Source: Adlercreutzia caecimuris B7 (GTDB lineage: Bacteria; Actinomycetota; Coriobacteriia; Coriobacteriales; Eggerthellaceae). Taken from it: a stretch of 64,000 nucleotides of DNA. A model generated the notes under the pieces. The model saw only the letters and a program-made list of their open reading frames with translations. It made no database searches and was not told the DNA's origin. The position numbers were made by a program, and so were the translations under genes. Shown in pieces: positions 52,276 to 62,873 of the stretch (position 1 is the first letter of the stretch; the number at the start of each line of letters is the position of its first letter). The stretch spans positions 576,424 to 640,423 of the forward strand of contig NZ_KE159646.1 of assembly GCF_000403355.2 (NCBI RefSeq). The letters are read 5' to 3'.

Positions 52276-52872
52276 CTAATTGGTCATGAGCGCCGCTGCA
52301 ATATCGCCGGAGGTCGACGAGGCGGCTTCCCAAGTGTTGTCTACCTTGGTGTACTTGATCGTCACCGGCTCGGTGGGCTTCAACTCGACGCCGTTGAGAG
52401 ACTGGATCACGATCTCGCCGATCTTCTTGTTGATATCGTCGTTGGACATGCCCGCGATTTCCTCGGGATTGGCGGTGATGGCATCCACTGCCTCCTGGAG
52501 CGCCTTCTGGTACCCTGAATAGCTTTTGCAGGTGAGCGTCAGCTGGGCCTGGGCCGTCTCTCCGTCGACAGTCACCGAGTCGATAGTGTAGTCGAATCCC
52601 TCGAGATAGGAGCGCATGAACTCCATGCCGTCGATGCCGTAGAGCGACAGGCGGCTCATGTCGACTGCTTCGGAAATCTCGTTGACGAACTTCTCATCGA
52701 GATTCTTGATACTGTCCAGCTCCGAGGCCAGCGATGAGCGAACCAGTTCCTCATCGGATTGCTGGGAAGAGCTGCATCCTGCAAGAGACAGAAGCCCGAC
52801 GCCGAGCAGCGCCGCAAAAACAGCGTAGGCGACCCGAGTAAGGGTATGTGATTTTAACTTTACATAATCCAT
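52276..52872 (-). CDS. Predicted lipoprotein, unknown function
   Basis: 198 residues. N-terminal signal with a hydrophobic core and lipobox LAGC followed by SSSQQSDEE; the mature part is acidic and helical with an ELVRSSLASELDSI start, resembling DUF5105-type lipoproteins of Gram-positive bacteria, but assignment is uncertain. The ATG at 52872 starts just before the basic region of the signal. Last chromosomal gene seen before the conjugative element. Confidence 0.75.
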   Translation of the reverse strand: MDYVKLKSHTLTRVAYAVFAALLGVGLLSLAGCSSSQQSDEELVRSSLASELDSIKNLDEKFVNEISEAVDMSRLSLYGIDGMEFMRSYLEGFDYTIDSVTVDGETAQAQLTLTCKSYSGYQKALQEAVDAITANPEEIAGMSNDDINKKIGEIVIQSLNGVELKPTEPVTIKYTKVDNTWEAASSTSGDIAAALMTN

Positions 52873-53258
52873 AACATGCAAACCTGCCCTTCTATTTCCG
52901 TGAGGTGCGGATCCTGCAGTAGCACTGTTGTACATCAATTTCTACACCTAAATCGTTTTCGTCCAAATGTGCGTCTTATTCATTCTAGCAGTCTTCAAAA
53001 TACGACGCTTTCGTTTTGGCTCGCGCAGTGGTTAAACCATGCAAATTGCAGAGCTGCGACTACGACAAAAAGAGCGCAAAATGCTCTGACGCGATGCGCT
53101 CAGCCGGGAATTGCGAATTGGGCTAATCTGAAGCGCCTCAGCCCCTCGTTGCTGAAGCAAGCGCAAGCGGAGGGCCGAAACATCGAACGGCCGCATATGA
53201 GCTTTGATATGAAAGCTACGGCCCATAGATTCCTTTTAAGGAGAAAGGAAGGTGCTGC
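52873..53258. other. Gap containing the chromosome/ICE junction
   Basis: 386 bases, visibly more AT-rich than the chromosome. The left part holds the lipoprotein promoter; a small AGAGC/GCTCT hairpin lies at 53071-53087. The ICE left end is expected between about 52967 and 53258, but no direct repeat or tRNA end could be identified without the other junction. Confidence 0.4.
52939..52966 (-). promoter_or_regulatory. Predicted lipoprotein-gene promoter
   Basis: Minus-strand TTGGAC (52966-52961), 16-base spacer, TAGAAA (52944-52939), about 65 bases before the start codon. Confidence 0.5.
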
Positions 53259-53708
53259 ATGAAAGAATACATTGACTCCTCGCCGCCCACAACCCATGCT
53301 GCTATTGCTCCGTACAAAGAGGACATGGAGCAAGCTCGGGGCGGTGCGTCTAATGCACCTGGCTTTCTGATAGGCGGATTCGGCCTCATACCTCAGGCCG
53401 TAACCTCTAATCCTGATATCTCCCTGCCAGCGAAAGCGCTCTACGCCTATGTAGCATCGAAGGCCGAGTCTTCTGAGCGTGTGGATATATCCTACGACGA
53501 CATTCTTTCGGATCTCCATACGACGCGCCGAACGCTGAAGCGCCTCTGCCGCGAGCTTCTCAGCGCCGGGCTTATGCGAGCTTACATTCGGCGCGACGCT
53601 ATTGCGGTCGGCGTGCGAGATCTCCCTTACGGGATCGTGCGATTCTGGATCCCAAGAGGACCAATCCCGGCAGATAGACGTCGAGGAGGTGCCCTCTATG
53701 TCCTCTAA
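53259..53708 (+). CDS. ICE winged-helix protein, possible regulator
   Basis: 149 residues; AAGGAGAAAGGAAGG lies upstream of the ATG. The middle region (GFGLIPQAVTSNPDISLPAKALYAYVASKAE, then an HTH) aligns with the N-terminal part of the next protein, so the two are paralogues. No C-terminal replication domain is present. It overlaps the next gene by 11 bases. Probably a DNA-binding regulator or accessory initiator of the element; function not proven. Confidence 0.7.
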   Translation: MKEYIDSSPPTTHAAIAPYKEDMEQARGGASNAPGFLIGGFGLIPQAVTSNPDISLPAKALYAYVASKAESSERVDISYDDILSDLHTTRRTLKRLCRELLSAGLMRAYIRRDAIAVGVRDLPYGIVRFWIPRGPIPADRRRGGALYVL

Positions 53709-55068
53709 CACGGCGAGGGATAAAGAGGATGAGAACATTCTCGCATCTCCAGCGCAGGATGTTATGAGCTTGGGCTACGGCCTCTGCCCTCAAATGGTAT
53801 TTCGAGACGCCCGGCTTGAGCCAGGCGCAAAGGCAATATACGGATATCTCGCATCCTTCGCAGGCGCCGGAATGACCGCATTCCCCTCGCAGCGCCTCAT
53901 GCTCGAAGAGCTCAAGATGAGCCGACCCACGTATTCGAAACATTTGAAGCAACTTCAGGCATATGGATACGTGAAGGTCGAGCGCAGGAAGAACTCGCGC
54001 AACGAGTACATGTCGAACGTTTACGAGCTGGTACGTGAGCCAATGATCGACGATGAGCGAATGGAGGCCTACCGAGAGCTCCGCATACGATCTTTAGAAG
54101 CATCGAGGCTTGCAAGGAGAGAGCGCAACGTTTCTCGCGATGAGGCTCGAATAGACGAGATAGCTTCGATCCTTGGCAGCCGGGAGCTTGCCGAGCGAGC
54201 GATGCAGGCAGTTTTCAGCGATCTAGATCCGGCTGGAAAACCCCCACTGTCAAATTATTTTACAGTGGAAGAAAATCCCAGTTCGGAGCCAGTGTCAAAT
54301 AATTTTACAGTGGATACGCCAGTGTCAAATATTTTTACAGAGCCAGTGTCAAAAAACTTTACACTGGCTAATAGTGTTAATAGTATCAAGGGAAAAGTAA
54401 CAACCTACCAACCAACCAGGGACGGTTCTCAGGTTGAAGAACCGAGCGAGGCGAAGATCGAGGCTGGCGGGAAGGGATCGAAAGGAACCGACGATCCCCC
54501 CGAGTCTCTTCGCGCTCTGCTCGGGATAAGCATGAAGCCGGTGGCCCCAAGGCGCATGGAGGCTGTGCGCAGGGCTTACGAGCAGCGAATAGCCGAAGGT
54601 TACAGCGAGTCGGATATCGAACGCTCCTACGAGGCCTACCGAGCGGCCTACCTCTCAGAGCACAAAACCCTCAAGCAGGCCAAGCAGCTCGACCGGTGGC
54701 TGGTCGACGGAGACGGGATCATATCGTACGCAGCTATAGTCGGCGTCGGTCCGAAATACCGCTCCGGCGCAGACCCGGACGCCGACGCCTCGACGCCGGT
54801 GAACAACGCGGAGCGCCGCGCCCTTGCGCGGGCAAGTACCGAGGATCTTCAGGAGGCGCTCGCGCGGGCAGACTCGGCATTCAGGGCCCTCCTCGTAAAC
54901 CTTGAGCAAGCAAAGAGATCAAAGGACTGGGGTCTCGCGGGCGACCTTACCGACCAGGCCTGCGTATACCTGACGAGGCATCGGAGACAGGCGGTCGGCG
55001 AGTATCTCAAATCGCTGAGGGCGAGAGCGCGCGAAAATGTGCGCGATAGGGAAGGAGCTGGGAAATGA
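53698..55068 (+). CDS. ICE replication initiator with iteron-like repeats inside the gene
   Basis: 456 residues from the ATG at 53698 (GAGGAGG 8 bases upstream). N-terminal winged helix (about 25-115: YGLCPQMVF, GAKAIYGYLASFAG, MSRPTYSKHLKQL) of the type found in plasmid and phage initiators. Residues about 180-225 contain four short repeats of PVSNNFTV type, encoded by 25-bp dyad repeats at 54244-54367. A charged C-terminal helical part (about 270-456) follows. The layout, with repeats inside the initiator gene and an AT-rich stretch after them, recalls lambda O and Firmicute phage initiators. The end overlaps the next gene (ATGA). Confidence 0.72.
   Translation: MSSNTARDKEDENILASPAQDVMSLGYGLCPQMVFRDARLEPGAKAIYGYLASFAGAGMTAFPSQRLMLEELKMSRPTYSKHLKQLQAYGYVKVERRKNSRNEYMSNVYELVREPMIDDERMEAYRELRIRSLEASRLARRERNVSRDEARIDEIASILGSRELAERAMQAVFSDLDPAGKPPLSNYFTVEENPSSEPVSNNFTVDTPVSNIFTEPVSKNFTLANSVNSIKGKVTTYQPTRDGSQVEEPSEAKIEAGGKGSKGTDDPPESLRALLGISMKPVAPRRMEAVRRAYEQRIAEGYSESDIERSYEAYRAAYLSEHKTLKQAKQLDRWLVDGDGIISYAAIVGVGPKYRSGADPDADASTPVNNAERRALARASTEDLQEALARADSAFRALLVNLEQAKRSKDWGLAGDLTDQACVYLTRHRRQAVGEYLKSLRARARENVRDREGAGK
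54244..54367 (+). repeat. Four 25-bp iteron-like dyad repeats (candidate ICE origin)
   Basis: Copies at 54244-54268, 54289-54313, 54319-54343 and 54343-54367. Each follows CCA-n-TGT-n-AAAT...ACA-n-TGG, i.e. an imperfect palindrome: copy 1 CCACTGTCAAATTATTTT..., copy 4 has perfect 7-bp arms CCAGTGT/ACACTGG. Start-to-start spacings are 45, 30 and 24 bases. An AT-rich stretch (54368-54405) follows. All lie in frame within the initiator gene. Confidence 0.7.
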
Positions 55069-56351
55069 CGATAGGAGATGCCGGGGACGACTTCGCCGAG
55101 CAGGTGCTGCGAACATCCATGGACCTCGCGAAGGACATCCTGCGCTATATCGACGGCCTCGACATGCCCCACAAGAGCTGGGCGGACAAGTACGAGATCG
55201 CCCGGGAAGACGCCTCTCGGGTTGCCGAGGCGGCGTTTGCCGAGGCTGAGGACGAGTTGTCGGAGACGCAGGCAACATGGCTTTGGGCACCGAACGAGAG
55301 AGAGGCAGACGAGCTGTGCGCCAACCTTGAGCGAAAGGGCTACGAGTTCACACGCGCGAAGGCGCGCAAGAGCGACGGTGTTGTGAAGGTCCGCGTCGCC
55401 CACAACAACGGCTGCGTGCCCATCGCCGAGGGAGGGGAGTACGATCCCGTGGATTTCAGCGATTCGGAGACGCTGGCGGTGCTCGATGCCTACTCCTACG
55501 AAAGTTGCAAGGAGTACCTGGGAATACTGGCCGAAGCCGAAGCGCTCAAGAAGGCCCTGGTCGAATCGTCCGAGAACATCGATTACGTGCCCCACTCGCC
55601 GGAAAACTGCGTGTTCACATTCACAACCGTGCCGTGGGATCGAGATGGAAATGTGCTCCTGGACTACCTCGACAGAGCGGGCATCGGCAACGAGAGCTGG
55701 ATATGCGAGATGCCGGCCTCCGAGGCGGGGCTTCCCGGGCCAGACGACGTGCAGGGGATCGCCGTGGAGTTCAACGCGCGCAACGCCCCACACGTCCAAG
55801 CAGCCGTCGATGCCCTTTTGAGAAGCGGCATACGAGGCCTTGATCAGAGCAGATTCCCGCAGTTCGCCAAGGCAATGCGGGAGGCGCAGACGCGCGCATC
55901 GAGCCTGTACGGCCAGGAAGGGCTCGGGTACGAGAGCCTGTCTGTGACCGACGAGACGACTGCGGGAGCCGTGCGGTGCGCGCTCGTCGAAGAAGGCGTT
56001 GCGTGCGCTGCCATCAACCGGGCCGAGGCGGGCAACTGGGAGATCGTCGTCGATCGGGCGGATGCCATCGCATCTCAATGGCGTATAAAGCAACTCGCAA
56101 GAGAGTACGAGGCGCCAGCGAGGCAGGCCAAGAAGGATGCCGAGGCGCTTTCACAATCCGCGCATCGGAGGGAGAAGCCGGACAACGTGGCGGCCCGTAG
56201 GCGATCGAGCAAGTACGCCAAGAAGTCGAAGGACACGCCAAGCCGAGACGAGCTTGCCGCGCGAGAGGGCGCCGAACGCGTAAACCGCGCCCGCAAGCGC
56301 GGGATGGCCATCGACACACCTTCTTTGACGCATAAGAAGCCGTCGCGCTAG
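55065..56351 (+). CDS. ICE protein of unknown function
   Basis: 428 residues, no signal peptide or membrane segment. Acidic N-terminal two-thirds with several helical and alpha/beta stretches (YVPHSPENCVFTF, GNWEIVVDRADAI), and a basic Arg/Lys/Ser-rich tail (about 350-428). No recognised domain. The ATGA overlap with the initiator gene couples their translation, so a role in replication, relaxation or mating-pair formation is likely but unproven. The gap after it (56352-56520) holds no gene. Confidence 0.7.
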   Translation: MTIGDAGDDFAEQVLRTSMDLAKDILRYIDGLDMPHKSWADKYEIAREDASRVAEAAFAEAEDELSETQATWLWAPNEREADELCANLERKGYEFTRAKARKSDGVVKVRVAHNNGCVPIAEGGEYDPVDFSDSETLAVLDAYSYESCKEYLGILAEAEALKKALVESSENIDYVPHSPENCVFTFTTVPWDRDGNVLLDYLDRAGIGNESWICEMPASEAGLPGPDDVQGIAVEFNARNAPHVQAAVDALLRSGIRGLDQSRFPQFAKAMREAQTRASSLYGQEGLGYESLSVTDETTAGAVRCALVEEGVACAAINRAEAGNWEIVVDRADAIASQWRIKQLAREYEAPARQAKKDAEALSQSAHRREKPDNVAARRRSSKYAKKSKDTPSRDELAAREGAERVNRARKRGMAIDTPSLTHKKPSR

Positions 56352-56520
56352 CCGCTAGACTGCTGAGATTTTTTCGACAAAGGGCTTGCGAAAAGTTTAA
56401 TACAGTTCCTAAAGTCTAAGAAAGGCCACGTCAAAGAAGGGAAGGCGTGACTGAGAGAGCGCAAGGCAATCGAACTTCCACCTCGATACCTTGCGGCAAG
56501 GAAGAGACAAAGGAAGACTT

Positions 56521-59388
56521 ATGGAGCGTGCAGGCCGTATTGCGGCTACCGTGCTCACTGTTGCCGCCCTGGGCACGTCCCTCGGCGCAATAGTGGGCTC
56601 GGCGGTTGAGATTTTCCAACACATAGGACTCTCGTCGATAGTCCTGGGCCACGTGGGCGCAGCCGAGATCGTCGAAGCCTGCGAGGGAGTGTCCGCAGGG
56701 CTGATCGCCACGGCTGCTTCCCTCCTACTCGCTCTCTTCTCCTGTGCATGCGGGGCGCATCGCAAGGTGCAGCTGGCGCTTGCCGGCGCATCGCTCGCTA
56801 CCCTCTCGGCCTCGGCGGTCATCCCGGCGGGCGCCGGCTATCTGCTCAAGGGCGGCATCTCGTCCGCCGCATTCCTCATCGTCGCAATCGTGTGCGCCGT
56901 CTTCGCCGCATCGGCGCTCAGCTCGATGTTCAAGGCGAACTACGACACCGGGTCCGAGCACGGCGCCGAGAGGATGGCCGAGGGGGAGGAGCTCAGCTTC
57001 CTCGCAGACACCGAGCACTTCTACAACAACATCGCCTACTCCGAGCATGCCGGCCAGGCGCTCGTGGCGACGACCGAGAAACTCGAAAGCGCGCTGCACG
57101 CCCGAAATCGGAACGACATCACAATCGGCACATCCGGCCTCGGCAAGACGCACCATCGCGTGGAGCCCGAGCTGCTGAACGCGATGGGGGATTTTCCGGT
57201 CCCCGTAATGCCCGGGCATCTGCGCAAGGCGGAGCACGCCATGGAAGCGGCGGACTGCGCGGCCGCAGCGCGGAAGATGTCGCATGCAATGGAACCCGAG
57301 ACGATCGCGAACCGGAAGCGCGCGGGATCCCCGCTCGGTGACGGCTACGACTTCATTGCGACGGATCCTAAGGGCGACACTATGCGAGCCCTCGGCAACT
57401 TCCAGGCGGCCTGCGGCACGGACATCAGGATCTTCGACACTGTGGAGTTCAAGGGCCACGGCTACAACCCGCTCGACGAGCACTACATCCCTCCGCATAA
57501 GACCGATGTGTGCGAAGTGGAGTCAATCCGATGCAGCATCGCACCCCTGGCCCGCTACTCCGACGAAGGGGAGCCTGCCTGGGAGGAGGGCACGCCGCTC
57601 AAGCTTGCGGTGGAGGACGCCGGGTTGGACGAGCCGCCCTGCTCTCTGAAGATCGGCGAGCCGCGGATCTCGGTCGATGCCGAAATGACCTACCGGCAGC
57701 GCCTCGAGAGCTGCGATCTGGGAAATATGGGGGTTAAGGACGACGATATCGACGAAGGCGGGTATCTCGATTGGAAGACCGGCGAGATCACCGGCGCCGG
57801 GTGGTCCGGAAAGAGCGAGTGGGAATCAGTCGCCGTTCTACGTTCAATCGCCTACAAGCAGACCCGGTGCTTCATCGCCATAACCGTGCGCAACGAGCTG
57901 GGACGAGGCGATGCGGCAGACGTGCGCCTCGAAATCGATCTCGATCGGGCGCTCGCGCTCGATCCGGAGAGCATCAGCGCAGAGAGGGGCGGCGCCTCGT
58001 CAGTTTCGGCCGACGCTTCGAAGCCGTCTCATTTGAGGATTGAGATCGAGAAGCTGCCCCACAACGGGATGGCCGTTATCCGCTTCGAAGCGGACATAGA
58101 GTCGTACATCGTCCCCGACGGCGTGGCGCTCACGAAGACCGTCGAGTGCCTCGTTGCGAACCTCAAGCACGCGGACGCGCCGTCAACTAACCAGGACCCG
58201 TTTTGGGAGGAGTGCAAGCGCCTCGCGTTCCTGTCGCTCTGCGCAGCCGCATACGAGTGGTACGCAAACGACGATCGAAACCTCAACACGGTCGCCCGCT
58301 TGCTCAACATGGCCCTGCCCGAGGAGGGCGGAATGGACCAGATGTCGCCGCTCGGATACCTCATGCGCAGGTGGGAGAGGGGCGAGGTGTTCGCCGAAGA
58401 GGACGGCGAGTCAGGTATCACATCGCTGTTCGGAGGCGCGAGGAAGAAGCGGGAGAATTGGAGCGAGGACCCCTCGCGGGTGCCGCACTCCAGGACGAAC
58501 TCGCTAGCCCTGCACTGCTTCTACGCATTCACATCGGGCGCGCCTGAAACCGTGCAGTCGGTGATCATCACCTGCCAAACGGCCTTCGTCTCCCTTCTGG
58601 CCCCGGATGTGAAGAAGATGCTCGCGAGAGACGAGATGAGGCTCACCGAATTCGGCGAGGCGGGACGCCGGCAGGCCATGTACATCGTGACCAAGGACAC
58701 CGACAGTCCCTACGACTTCCTTACGGCGCTCATCGTGTACCAGACGATCGACCTGCTCCTAGACAAGGCCTACCACAACAAGGGGAAGCTCGACCGTCAC
58801 GTGCGATTCTCCCTCGACGAGTTCGCGAACATCGGAAAGATCCCGATCATGACGAGGGCCATGGCGGTGGTGCGAAGCCGGAATATGTCGATATCGCTCT
58901 ACGTGCAGTCGCGCTCTCAGATCGAGGTTGTCTACGGTGAGAAGGAAGCCCAGACGATCATCAACAACTGCACGACGCAGATGTTCCTCGGCGGGCACGA
59001 CGCCAACACGCTCAAGGAATTCTCCGAGACCATAGGCGACGAGACCATCTACTCGCGGATAACCAACCGGTCGTTCAACGGTGGAATGGCCGTAGGGCCT
59101 CAGTCGATCAGCGAGTCGATTCAGGCCACGGGCCGCAAGGTGCGCTCCGCCGCGCAGCTCCGCCAGATGGAGAACACGAAGATGCTCGTGTTCATCCAGG
59201 GGGCCCGGGTTATCGAAGACACCAAGTACCCCACGTCGAAGCACCCCTACTACCCCTATGTGTACACGACGCATCCCCGCCCGGAGGACTGCGGTATCGC
59301 ACGCTGCAGAGAGCCTTTCGACCCAGTGGAGTACATCGCCCGAAAGCAGGTCGAGAGAAGCGGGAGAGGCGGGGAGCCATGGAAGTAA
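56521..59388 (+). CDS. Type IV coupling protein (VirD4/TraG) with large inserted domain
   Basis: Couples the relaxosome to the conjugation channel. 955 residues; AAGGAAG precedes the ATG. About four membrane segments within residues 1-130. Walker A is GTSGLGKT (203-210) and Walker B ends in Asp766-Glu767 (FSLDEFANIG). Between YNPLDE (315-320) and the ECLVANL/DPFWEE blocks (542-562) lies an extra segment of about 215 residues, partly beta-rich (RCFIAITVRNELG, HLRIEIEKLPHNG), absent from typical family members. First gene of the transfer module. Confidence 0.92.
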   Translation: MERAGRIAATVLTVAALGTSLGAIVGSAVEIFQHIGLSSIVLGHVGAAEIVEACEGVSAGLIATAASLLLALFSCACGAHRKVQLALAGASLATLSASAVIPAGAGYLLKGGISSAAFLIVAIVCAVFAASALSSMFKANYDTGSEHGAERMAEGEELSFLADTEHFYNNIAYSEHAGQALVATTEKLESALHARNRNDITIGTSGLGKTHHRVEPELLNAMGDFPVPVMPGHLRKAEHAMEAADCAAAARKMSHAMEPETIANRKRAGSPLGDGYDFIATDPKGDTMRALGNFQAACGTDIRIFDTVEFKGHGYNPLDEHYIPPHKTDVCEVESIRCSIAPLARYSDEGEPAWEEGTPLKLAVEDAGLDEPPCSLKIGEPRISVDAEMTYRQRLESCDLGNMGVKDDDIDEGGYLDWKTGEITGAGWSGKSEWESVAVLRSIAYKQTRCFIAITVRNELGRGDAADVRLEIDLDRALALDPESISAERGGASSVSADASKPSHLRIEIEKLPHNGMAVIRFEADIESYIVPDGVALTKTVECLVANLKHADAPSTNQDPFWEECKRLAFLSLCAAAYEWYANDDRNLNTVARLLNMALPEEGGMDQMSPLGYLMRRWERGEVFAEEDGESGITSLFGGARKKRENWSEDPSRVPHSRTNSLALHCFYAFTSGAPETVQSVIITCQTAFVSLLAPDVKKMLARDEMRLTEFGEAGRRQAMYIVTKDTDSPYDFLTALIVYQTIDLLLDKAYHNKGKLDRHVRFSLDEFANIGKIPIMTRAMAVVRSRNMSISLYVQSRSQIEVVYGEKEAQTIINNCTTQMFLGGHDANTLKEFSETIGDETIYSRITNRSFNGGMAVGPQSISESIQATGRKVRSAAQLRQMENTKMLVFIQGARVIEDTKYPTSKHPYYPYVYTTHPRPEDCGIARCREPFDPVEYIARKQVERSGRGGEPWK

Positions 59389-59884: not shown

Positions 59885-60265
59885 ATGGCCTCGATAAAGA
59901 TCCATCAGGACCTCTACAACTTCAAGCGAAAGCGCAACGGCATGACCGCGCGCCAGATCGGCTCGATCGTAGCCGCCATTCCCTGCATCGCATTCGGCGC
60001 CTGGCTTCTCGTGTGGTGCCTCGGGCTTCCCATCGAGCTCACGGGTTTTGCGGCCGTGCTGTTCGCGGTGCCCGCGATCGCATGCGGCTGGTTCCCCGTG
60101 TGGGGAATGCCCCTGGAGAGGTTCCTCTTTCGCGACAGGCAGATGGATCGTCGCGGAAACTGCATCGTTTCGAAGTGGGATGCCTACGAACCCGAAGGGA
60201 GTGTGTTGACCGGTGCTCAGATCAAAGCAGAAAAAGCAAAGGGATATGAATCTCGCGCACGATAA
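59885..60265 (+). CDS. PrgI-family conjugation protein
   Basis: 126 residues. N-terminal KIHQDLYNFKRK, two closely spaced membrane segments (about 25-70), then a basic cytoplasmic tail. PrgI proteins (VirB3/TcpE role) accompany VirB4 in Gram-positive elements and help anchor it. The 3' end overlaps the VirB4 gene by 20 bases when ATG 60246 is used. Confidence 0.8.
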   Translation: MASIKIHQDLYNFKRKRNGMTARQIGSIVAAIPCIAFGAWLLVWCLGLPIELTGFAAVLFAVPAIACGWFPVWGMPLERFLFRDRQMDRRGNCIVSKWDAYEPEGSVLTGAQIKAEKAKGYESRAR

Positions 60266-62873
60266 TACGAAAGAGGTGGCGCCCGGCTGCTCGAACTGCG
60301 GATGCCCGATGCCCCAGGATGCGGCATTCTGCCCTCATTGCGGCCATGCGCGTCCACTCGCCCAGGAGAGCGCAGAGCTGCCTAAAAGCAAGAAGGCCCG
60401 CCGCAGCCTGAGGGAGAAGATGGAGAGGATCGCCGGAGGATCCCTCTCCGAGTGCACGAACGATCTTGTGGCGTTCGAGGTCATGACCGCATCGGGGCTC
60501 GCGCGAGACGAGCGCGGCCGGTGGTCGCGGACGCTCATGTTCGGCGACACGGCCTACGACCAGGAACGCCGCGAGCAGCGAGACGACATCTACGACAAGA
60601 TGTGCCAGTTCCACTCCGTCTTCCCGGCGGGGTCGGCTTACCAGATCAACCTCCTCAACATGCCGGAAACGCGCGATGCGCAGGCCGCGGCAGCCCAGCT
60701 GCTTCCGACCGACGGCGCCGACGCCGACATGGCGCGCCATTACAACGGACTCATCAAGAGGAAACAGGCGGAGGGGAGAACCGAGATCCGCCGGATCAAC
60801 CTCGTCACATTCTCGATCCAGGCCGAGGACGAGCAGGCCGCAGAGAACCTGCTCGCAACGATGCGCGAGAACGCCGCCGCGCACCTGGGGAGAATGCAGG
60901 TGAGAGCAGAGTCGCTGGACGGAGATGCGCGTATGAGGATCTTTCACGACCTGCTGCGCGGTCCTGAGTCACCGTACACCTTCTCGTATGCCTCCCTCGG
61001 CGCACGGGAGCGGGCGCGCGCATCGGTCGCCCCGGACTTCGCGGCCTACCCCGATGTCGACGCAACGTTGCGCCGCACCATCCTGACGCCGAATTTCTAC
61101 GTGAAGACGCTGCATATCGCCGATTTCGGCAGCGAGTTGTCGGATGCCGCCATCCGGCGAATCCGGGCCCTACCAGTTCCTATGAACATCTCCCTGACAT
61201 TCTTCCCGCAGCCGAAGGGGGAGATCATCAGAAAGGTGCAGCAGAACATCAACGCCGTGCAGGGCGAGATCGTCACCCTTCAGTCGAAAATGTCCAGGCA
61301 GGGGATGGACCCGACTATCCTGCCGCCTGCCATGGAGGACAAGGAGGCCGACGGCAAGGAGCTGAGATCGTTCCTCATAGAGGACGACCAGCAGGTGTCC
61401 TGGTTCCAGGGCCTCATCACCATATACGCGAAAACCCCTGCGGATATGAGGCGGTACACCTCTATGATCCTCGATGAGGCGCAGGTCTTCTCGCTCTCCG
61501 TCGCGCAGGTACCGCTCTACCAGGAGGAGCTGTGGAAGAGCTCCCAGCCGGTGGCCGACACGTTCGTACCCGACAAGATGCGTTCGCTCACCACGGCCGA
61601 GAGCGCCATCATGATGCCGTGGACCAGCGAATCGGTCTTCCACGACCCGCGCAACTCGTACTTCTTCGTGCAGCACGCGACGACTCTGGCGCCCCTCTTC
61701 ATCTCGCCCGACGAGCTGGGCAGCCCGCATACCATGGTGTTCGGAATGACGGGCTACGGCAAGGGGATGCTGCTCAACACCATCATCGGGCACCTGGTCG
61801 CCTCGTGGCCCCGCACTGAGACCGATGACGGCGACGACTGGGCCCGCTGCCCCGATCCCGCGGCCCCGCAGGTCTTCGTGTTCGATCAGCACGCCGAGTA
61901 CACGCCCCTGGCAAACGCGCTTTCAGCGCCCATCTACAAGTTCAGCCCCAATGGGCGATGGCGCCTCAACCCGTTCGACCTGAACTGCCGGGAGGGCGAG
62001 CTCACCATGGCCGAGGTGTCGCGCAACGCGGACTTCTTCAAGGCGCTCGCCCAGGACGTGCTGGACGGCGCCCTGACCAAGAGACACGAAGCTGTCGTAG
62101 ACCGATGCCTGCGCATCGTGTTCCAGCCCCATCTGGGCAAGACGACGCGTCCCGTCTTGAGCGACTTCGCCGAAGCGCTGCGGCAGCAGCCCGAGACCGA
62201 GGCGGTGGACATCGCCCTCGCCTTCGAATCCTTCATCGACGGCCTGGCGAACTCGTTCAACGGCCAGACGAACGTGCGGGACGCGCCCCATCTCACTATC
62301 TACGACTGCTCCGAGCTCGGGAAGAGCCTCGAGGTCATGGCCATGCTGTCGATGCTGCAGCACGTGCGAAACGCGTGCTTCCGCAACAACGCCGCCGGCA
62401 AGCCCACGTACCTGATCATGGAGGAGGTGCAGATCCTCCTCGAAAACGAGCCTGCAGCTCGCATGCTCAACGACTTCTACGCGCAGATGCGCAAGTGGGG
62501 CCTGCACATGGTGTGCGTGACCCAGCACCCGATTACGATGCTGGAGCACCCCATAGGCAAGAAGATGTACGAGAACACGGGAATGCACGTGTTCCTCCCC
62601 ATGCAGAACCTCAATGCTGAGTACGTGGCCGAGTACTTCAAGCTCTCGCCAACCCAGAAGGACATGATCGACGTACGCGGCGACAACAAGGGCCGCGGCC
62701 TCGTATCGGCGGCCGGCATGAAGATCCCCTTCAACGCGTGGATCGACCCGAAGTGGGACAAGGAGCTCTACGAGACCTTCAACACGGATCCCAACGCGCG
62801 GAAACGCGTGTTGGAGGCCGTCGCTGCAACCGCGCCCGAGGAAGAGGGCGCCGAAGCGCGCGAGGGGCGATAG
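60246..62873 (+). CDS. VirB4-type conjugation ATPase with N-terminal zinc ribbon
   Basis: 875 residues. An N-terminal zinc ribbon (Cys15, Cys18, Cys29, Cys32) precedes a TraE/VirB4 region. The nucleotide loop reads GMTGYGKG (500-507), so the Ser/Thr after the Walker A lysine is replaced by Gly507. The Walker B block is YLIMEEVQIL with Glu726-Glu727; VCVTQHPITML is the typical later motif. ATG 60246 has AAAGGG very close upstream; GTG 60213, 11 bases after AAGGGAG, is a real alternative adding 11 residues. Confidence 0.9.
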   Translation: MNLAHDNTKEVAPGCSNCGCPMPQDAAFCPHCGHARPLAQESAELPKSKKARRSLREKMERIAGGSLSECTNDLVAFEVMTASGLARDERGRWSRTLMFGDTAYDQERREQRDDIYDKMCQFHSVFPAGSAYQINLLNMPETRDAQAAAAQLLPTDGADADMARHYNGLIKRKQAEGRTEIRRINLVTFSIQAEDEQAAENLLATMRENAAAHLGRMQVRAESLDGDARMRIFHDLLRGPESPYTFSYASLGARERARASVAPDFAAYPDVDATLRRTILTPNFYVKTLHIADFGSELSDAAIRRIRALPVPMNISLTFFPQPKGEIIRKVQQNINAVQGEIVTLQSKMSRQGMDPTILPPAMEDKEADGKELRSFLIEDDQQVSWFQGLITIYAKTPADMRRYTSMILDEAQVFSLSVAQVPLYQEELWKSSQPVADTFVPDKMRSLTTAESAIMMPWTSESVFHDPRNSYFFVQHATTLAPLFISPDELGSPHTMVFGMTGYGKGMLLNTIIGHLVASWPRTETDDGDDWARCPDPAAPQVFVFDQHAEYTPLANALSAPIYKFSPNGRWRLNPFDLNCREGELTMAEVSRNADFFKALAQDVLDGALTKRHEAVVDRCLRIVFQPHLGKTTRPVLSDFAEALRQQPETEAVDIALAFESFIDGLANSFNGQTNVRDAPHLTIYDCSELGKSLEVMAMLSMLQHVRNACFRNNAAGKPTYLIMEEVQILLENEPAARMLNDFYAQMRKWGLHMVCVTQHPITMLEHPIGKKMYENTGMHVFLPMQNLNAEYVAEYFKLSPTQKDMIDVRGDNKGRGLVSAAGMKIPFNAWIDPKWDKELYETFNTDPNARKRVLEAVAATAPEEEGAEAREGR

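Follow-up and report, generated by a model that had tools for sequence, protein, structure and literature searches.

The initiator gene and the element around it

The window, the whole 64,000-nucleotide stretch of Adlercreutzia caecimuris B7 DNA under analysis, holds the left end of an ICE, a replication initiator gene with a second winged-helix copy upstream, and three genes of a conjugation apparatus.

52857-52873, strand -: attL, left end of the ICE, 17-bp direct repeat TATGGATTATGTAAAGT (genome C1:629280)
53259-53708, strand +: 149-aa ORF, winged-helix domain alone, second copy (phrog_270 2.3e-4; 5.1e-6; 6.8e-8)
53698-55068, strand +: replication initiator gene, 456 aa
53770-54033, strand +: winged-helix (HTH_36) domain, residues 25-112 (PF13730 45.5 bits, cut-off 25)
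54235-54549, strand +: disordered linker, residues 180-284 (pLDDT <50), holding the putative origin
54550-55065, strand +: C-terminal helical part, residues 285-456, partly common to a second initiator family
56491-59388, strand +: VirD4-like coupling protein (NF045973 275 bits, cut-off 250)
59885-60265, strand +: PrgI family T4SS protein (PF12666 35.9 bits, cut-off 27)
60213-62873, strand +: VirB4-like T4SS ATPase (NF045971 464.6 bits, cut-off 325)

A second copy of the att repeat lies outside the window (genome C1:685075-685091), 55.8 kb from attL, and the genome contains these two copies only at up to two mismatches. The 55.8-kb ICE also encodes a relaxase (PF03432), SSB, ParA and a tyrosine integrase; a NikA-like match is weak and below its cut-off. 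It thus has the integrase, relaxase, coupling protein and T4SS ATPase of an ICE; its att sites form a direct repeat, and relatives show the site empty. In another genome (G058) the initiator gene likewise marks the edge of a block: PrgI- and VirB4-like proteins, judged by eye and position, lie beyond it, and chromosomal genes flank it on the opposite side.

The initiator gene likely starts at the ATG at 53698, which overlaps the stop of the upstream ORF. HTH_36 is the sole Pfam domain above cut-off in the 456-aa protein, and this winged helix (residues 25-112) is the presumed binder of the iterons described below, and the C-terminal part (residues 285-456) presumably contacts the host replisome. 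PHROGs matches are to a DnaD-like helicase loader (3.6e-21) and several replication initiation families. An AlphaFold2 model (mean pLDDT 67, pTM 0.37) is confident in the winged helix and a long helix and of middling confidence in the C-terminal helices; residues 183-224, encoded by the dyads, fall within the stretch modelled as disordered. The 149-aa ORF overlaps the start of the initiator gene and possibly encodes a regulator or a competitor for the initiator's iterons.

A Foldseek search with the model returns no match at E<=0.001. The best matches include RepA_N initiators and the N-terminal domains of DnaD and DnaB, tied with unrelated winged helices, and the best RepA_N structure is 5kbj (E 0.013). 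The N-terminal fold aligns with RepA_N structures 4pql, 4pt7 and 5kbj at Z 9.5, 9.5 and 8.8, and other winged helices tie with these scores. The fold thus agrees with an initiator without proving RepA_N membership. RepA_N proteins carry PF06970 and the lambda O family carries Phage_rep_O, whereas neither profile is among the Pfam matches of the ICE initiator at E<=1. When solved structures are searched by sequence, 1tbx is best (E 0.0011 with an alignment), and the protein alone finds nothing better than E 0.44.

Iterons and AT-rich stretch

The sequence-only reading had described four in-frame 25-bp repeats at 54244-54367 followed by an AT-rich stretch. Both are confirmed, but the right arm of iteron 3 is damaged.

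54244-54268, strand.: iteron 1, 25-bp dyad CCACTGTCAAATTATTTTACAGTGG, in frame with the initiator gene
54289-54313, strand.: iteron 2, 25-bp dyad CCAGTGTCAAATAATTTTACAGTGG, in frame
54319-54343, strand.: iteron 3, 25 bp, right arm damaged, in frame
54343-54367, strand.: iteron 4, dyad reaching 54341-54369, in frame
54369-54387, strand +: AT-rich stretch TAATAGTGTTAATAGTATC, directly behind the dyads

Arm pairing, determined by reading, is 7 of 11 positions in iteron 3 and 10, 9 and 9 in the other three, so that there are three good dyads and one poor one. Iterons 3 and 4 share one base (54343), and the iterons are direct repeats as well as dyads. The pattern TGTNAAANNNNTTTACA has eight matches in the window at up to two mismatches (four sites, both strands) where 0.26 are expected, a count that 0/100 shuffles reach. 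At up to one mismatch the whole genome has seven matches, all within the four iteron sites, and a reversed control pattern has three.

GC content falls to 36% in 54244-54400, compared with 55% in the gene before it and 62% after it. The AT-rich stretch, which includes TAATAGT twice (54369-54384), occupies the same position as the AT-rich stretch behind the repeats of relatives and is a likely candidate for a DNA-unwinding site. TTGACA/TTTACA hexamers occur within the dyads, and promoter-like matches are found on both strands (window 54299-54386); these are probably incidental, with an antisense promoter being possible.

The dyads might be operator sites only, bound by the initiator or the 149-aa protein for transcription control, with the origin elsewhere. 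The second winged-helix copy just upstream of the initiator would suit such a role, as would the four sigma-70-like promoter sites in 52850-55100 (1.2 expected), three of which overlap dyads or the AT-rich stretch. However, some 550 bp of the gene precede the sites, repeats of other sequence hold this place in relatives, often with an AT-rich stretch behind them, and known cases with such a layout are origins, all of which makes an operator role alone very unlikely.

DNA-level constraint

The palindrome score of the linker is 26, whereas gene-wide synonymous shuffles peak at 15 (0/1000 reach 26) and 1/1000 linker-only shuffles reach it; these values uphold the earlier proposal that the constraint is on DNA rather than protein. 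Over the whole initiator gene the palindrome excess is weaker (1/60 shuffles) because the signal is local. The gene contains 17 repeated 10-mers against a null mean of 2.0, a number reached by 0/200 and, separately, 2/1000 synonymous shuffles. Codon usage within the iterons is similarly restricted. CCA, TCA, TTT and ACA are constant in all four copies, and in four other ORFs of the element these codons make up 8, 7, 7 and 10% (range 6.7 to 10%) of their synonymous sets. The centre codons vary by copy (TAT, AAT, ATT, AAC), so that the arms stay while amino acids change.

The initiator protein sequence thus fails to explain the dyads. A protein feature, with PVSNNFT-type peptides repeated for their own sake and the DNA playing no role, would account for all copies being in frame and encoding similar peptides. 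It is hardly credible, since the dyads are lost under codon shuffling that leaves the protein unchanged, the dyad centres alter amino acids without disturbing the arms, and the linker is predicted to be disordered. A second alternative is that the dyads act as mRNA hairpins in attenuation or translation control. The stretch does fold at -49.4 kcal/mol versus -33 for shuffles (z -4.0), but any DNA dyad folds in RNA. The iterons are also direct repeats, and in two relatives (L006 and L011) the repeats are significant and the palindromes are not; a role as hairpins is therefore extremely improbable.

Relatives in the window's family and a second family

A search of 138 genomes matched 23; the match covers the winged helix in 10 of them and is confined to the C-terminal part in 13. 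With L008 (contig end) and L017 (175-aa frame) dropped from the 10, eight winged-helix genes remained for testing, one of them the window's own; they represent about six lineages because L010/L012 and L006/L011 are close. Their repeated 10-mers are reached by 0/200 shuffles in seven genes and 1/200 in L009. Palindromes are reached by at most 3/60 shuffles in six genes and are not significant in L006 (10/60) and L011 (23/60). L010 and L012 carry other dyads, of the CCGTGTACCAAAAATTGGTACACGG type. Five more distant genes give a mixed picture: 10-mers are positive in L045, L064 and L067 (0/200 each) and reached by 4/200 shuffles in L065, and L044 is negative for 10-mers and positive for palindromes.

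The sequence-only reading predicted that the DNA repeats would persist while the rest of the gene diverged. This is the case within lineages and fails between them, where the repeat sequence is replaced. Of two pairs taken from the window's family, one has repeat codons conserved above the rest of the gene; in the L006/L011 pair codon identity in the linker is not higher (0.78 vs 0.84 elsewhere). Homologues that keep the protein and lose the repeats, named beforehand as evidence against an origin, are absent among the eight full-length family members, but 6/39 viral homologues miss p<=0.05.

The exact dyad itself is narrowly distributed. A scan found eight single sites in genome contigs, estimated to be about chance level, and two in viral contigs, never more than one per contig. 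A protein scan of the genome contigs gave 31 stretches, none a relative, and blastn of 54229-54430 against plasmids gave no match.

The second initiator family shares the common C-terminal region. The within-gene repeat test is positive in 2/19 of its genes at p<=0.01 and 4/19 at p<=0.05. Codon comparison of 15 of the 19 genes (L019, L022, L027 and L033 left out) shows that the stretch RTGK...SVSGKAT...INYSS has a codon identity of 0.83 at identical residues, versus 0.65 elsewhere (p 5e-4), and that this identity reaches 1.0 at most repeat positions. Short direct repeats of the TATCTGG type occur in this family, with codons nearly invariant across the 15 genes. The genome that carries the ICE also holds a second-family initiator (L030, C1:2268222-2271467).

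Relatives in phages and plasmids

Viral HTH_36 initiators show a family trait. From 59 viral loci, 17 near-duplicates (>=85% identity) and then 3 of the remaining 42 genes, those shorter than 160 aa, were dropped, leaving 39. Repeats exceed codon shuffling in 33/39 at p<=0.05 and 26/39 at p<=0.01, compared with 2/92 and 0/92 control ORFs from the same loci, which are mechanical ORFs of 200-500 aa rather than curated genes. The test thus parts initiators from controls cleanly at p<=0.05. The positive controls, lambda O and pCF10 RepA, are reached by 0/1000 shuffles, and the pCF10 RepA gene contains its origin; the negative controls lambda P, lambda cII and pCF10 ParA are not significant. Annotated records supplied 11 further genes of plasmids or phages, of which 8 are significant at p<=0.05 and 4 at p<=0.01; the other three (Sarcina, Selenomonas, Pseudosulfitobacter) are clearly negative. 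Codon shuffling offers a simple route to the origins of elements without a known origin.

In viral initiators the repeats are centred at residues 90-170, immediately after the winged helix. In all five phage groups compared, identical residues share their codon more often in the linker than elsewhere (0.76-0.98 vs 0.46-0.66). Repeats behind the winged helix are thus, by sequence comparison, a trait of the HTH_36 family in which the repeat sequence changes between lineages and the position stays constant. Members of the family can exchange their C-terminal domain: other HTH_36 initiators end in Bac_RepA_C, DnaB_2 or Phg_2220_C.

Change in the iterons appears linked to change in the winged helix. 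Among 1081 pairs, the sharing of repeated 8-mers rises with the identity of the two winged helices (Spearman 0.38), and 80-83% of pairs above 65% winged-helix identity share such 8-mers versus 9-13% below 45%. The correlation is supportive only, because the pairs are non-independent and the 8-mers include the AT-rich stretch.

In databases, the ICE winged helix has its closest relatives in the phage-plasmid EF62phi and in plasmids where the gene neighbours that of ParA; ParA adjoins the initiator in EF62phi and two plasmids, which are autonomous replicons. The initiators of EF62phi and the Carnobacterium plasmid pL21581-3, both with ParA adjacent, are 45-46% identical to the ICE winged helix over about 90-95 residues, and their linker repeats are reached by 9/200 and 3/200 shuffles, respectively. 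Their linker repeats and C-termini differ from those of the ICE, with Bac_RepA_C in the Carnobacterium protein.

A recurrent motif behind the iterons

Beyond the repeats, a short, strand-specific motif recurs in the linker. TAACAGT is present in the linkers of 32/47 initiator genes (L089-L147 and the window's family) versus 6.4 expected from codon shuffles, and its reverse complement in 1/47 (0.9 expected). Linkers contain 23 7-mers at z>=6, compared with 1 in winged-helix and 0 in C-terminal coding parts. TAACAGT is also present in 5/9 genes outside this set, of which at least EF62phi and a Listeria phage have close relatives inside it. The window's variant, TAATAGT, is not enriched (6/47 genes, 8.9 expected), and among the scanned linkers of the other seven winged-helix genes TAAYAG is found in L006 only. 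The signal is therefore chiefly a property of the viral set, and the window's AT-rich repeat was set aside as a proven member of the motif. Among the literature matches listed for TAACAGT, nothing looked relevant by title.

A speculative and rather doubtful extension is that the in-gene origins of HTH_36 initiators, whether from phages, plasmids or ICEs, are all built of two parts. Iterons that change fast and match the winged helix would come first, and behind them an AT-rich, strand-specific motif (TAATAACAGT-type) that changes more slowly and is read by a conserved host factor, which loads helicase on one strand; the ICE would have a diverged form (TAATAGT twice). If this were true, the initiator gene alone could reveal the origin in thousands of mobile elements.

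A proposed origin

An origin within the initiator gene, as in lambda O, had been proposed from the window alone and is the reading best supported by the comparisons, given the dyads, the disordered linker, the family trait and the ParA-adjacent relatives. We consider it likely that 54244-54387 is the replication origin of the circular form of the ICE. After excision, the winged helix of the initiator would bind iteron half-sites (core CCAcTGTnAAA), and several molecules would bend or wrap the DNA and thereby open the AT-rich stretch behind the dyads (54369-54387). The C-terminal part would then recruit host helicase-loading or primase machinery, theta replication would maintain the ICE circle, and ParA would partition it. 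The linker segment of the protein is probably a passive tether, as has been reported for pSK41 Rep. The dyads could have other functions in DNA.

One such function would be in partition, with the repeats as a centromere on which the element's ParA depends. The ICE does encode ParA, the initiator has ParA as its neighbour in EF62phi and two plasmids, and no ParB-like match was seen among the element proteins scanned. On the other hand, the ParA gene is at the opposite end of the ICE from the initiator, and such repeats in lambda O are an annotated origin. As a replacement for the origin a centromere is very improbable; the two readings are compatible, and the origin could double as a partition site.

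Comparison with known systems

Lambda has four 18-bp iterons annotated inside gene O, which passes the shuffle test as the ICE gene does. So does pCF10 RepA, whose gene adjoins that of ParA. The RepA_N plasmids pSK41 and pCF10 share with the ICE initiator a winged helix, mid-gene repeats that encode a linker, and a C-terminal domain. In pSK41, Rep is reported to bind four boxes within the gene that encodes it; its middle is a dispensable linker, and its C-terminus contacts DnaG.

The nearest published layout is that of pPR9/pUSA03-type staphylococcal initiators, which have an N-terminal HTH of the same Pfam family as the ICE initiator, pfam13730 (PMC5703833). In pPR9 the swapped segment takes in the origin region as well as the N-terminal domain, and an autonomous mini-replicon is reported (PMC5703833). 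The pPR9 type has the C-terminus of pSK41 Rep and a plasmid host, whereas the gene described here has a different helical region and resides in an ICE. The gene 38 initiator of phage SPP1 is described as binding repeats in its own gene, at oriL, with an AT-rich unwinding element (PMC6316719). By description, the in-gene repeats and AT-rich stretch liken oriL to the ICE; unlike the ICE, SPP1 is a lytic phage with a second origin, oriR.

These precedents narrow the novelty first claimed for the locus, since HTH_36 initiators with an in-gene origin are already published for staphylococcal plasmids. In-gene origins and the HTH_36 layout (pPR9) are known; what is new is the occurrence in an ICE and the evidence from across the family. 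A 2011 survey of actinobacterial ICEs lists other replication proteins (PMC3218068), and its 15 extra initiator families, with RepA_N among the profiles, added a single ICE, whose initiator is of the Rep2 type (PMC3218068). The literature covered, with subscription papers and preprints largely outside it, yielded no description of an in-gene origin in this lineage. The ICE very probably joins the elements that replicate from an origin hidden in their own initiator gene, and because such an origin would accompany partition and single-strand-binding genes, here too little separates an ICE from a plasmid.

Insertion site and cargo

The 17-bp att repeat consists of the 6-bp centre and the 11-bp XerD half of GATAATATGGATTATGTAAAGT (52857-52873; genome C1:685075-685096), and the insertion site looks like a chromosomal dif site. 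It resembles the dif suggested for Frankia. A dif-like site is present in 24/31 genomes, the element's own counted, and three congeners have it without the ICE, with both flanks clear in two (L173 and L174). The cargo of the ICE (L035, genome C1:652218-665250) includes secreted or surface-protein-like genes of 1270 and 1719 aa with a sortase-like ORF between them, all identified by eye, and a Y-family polymerase-like ORF (PF00817) is located at genome C1:670198.
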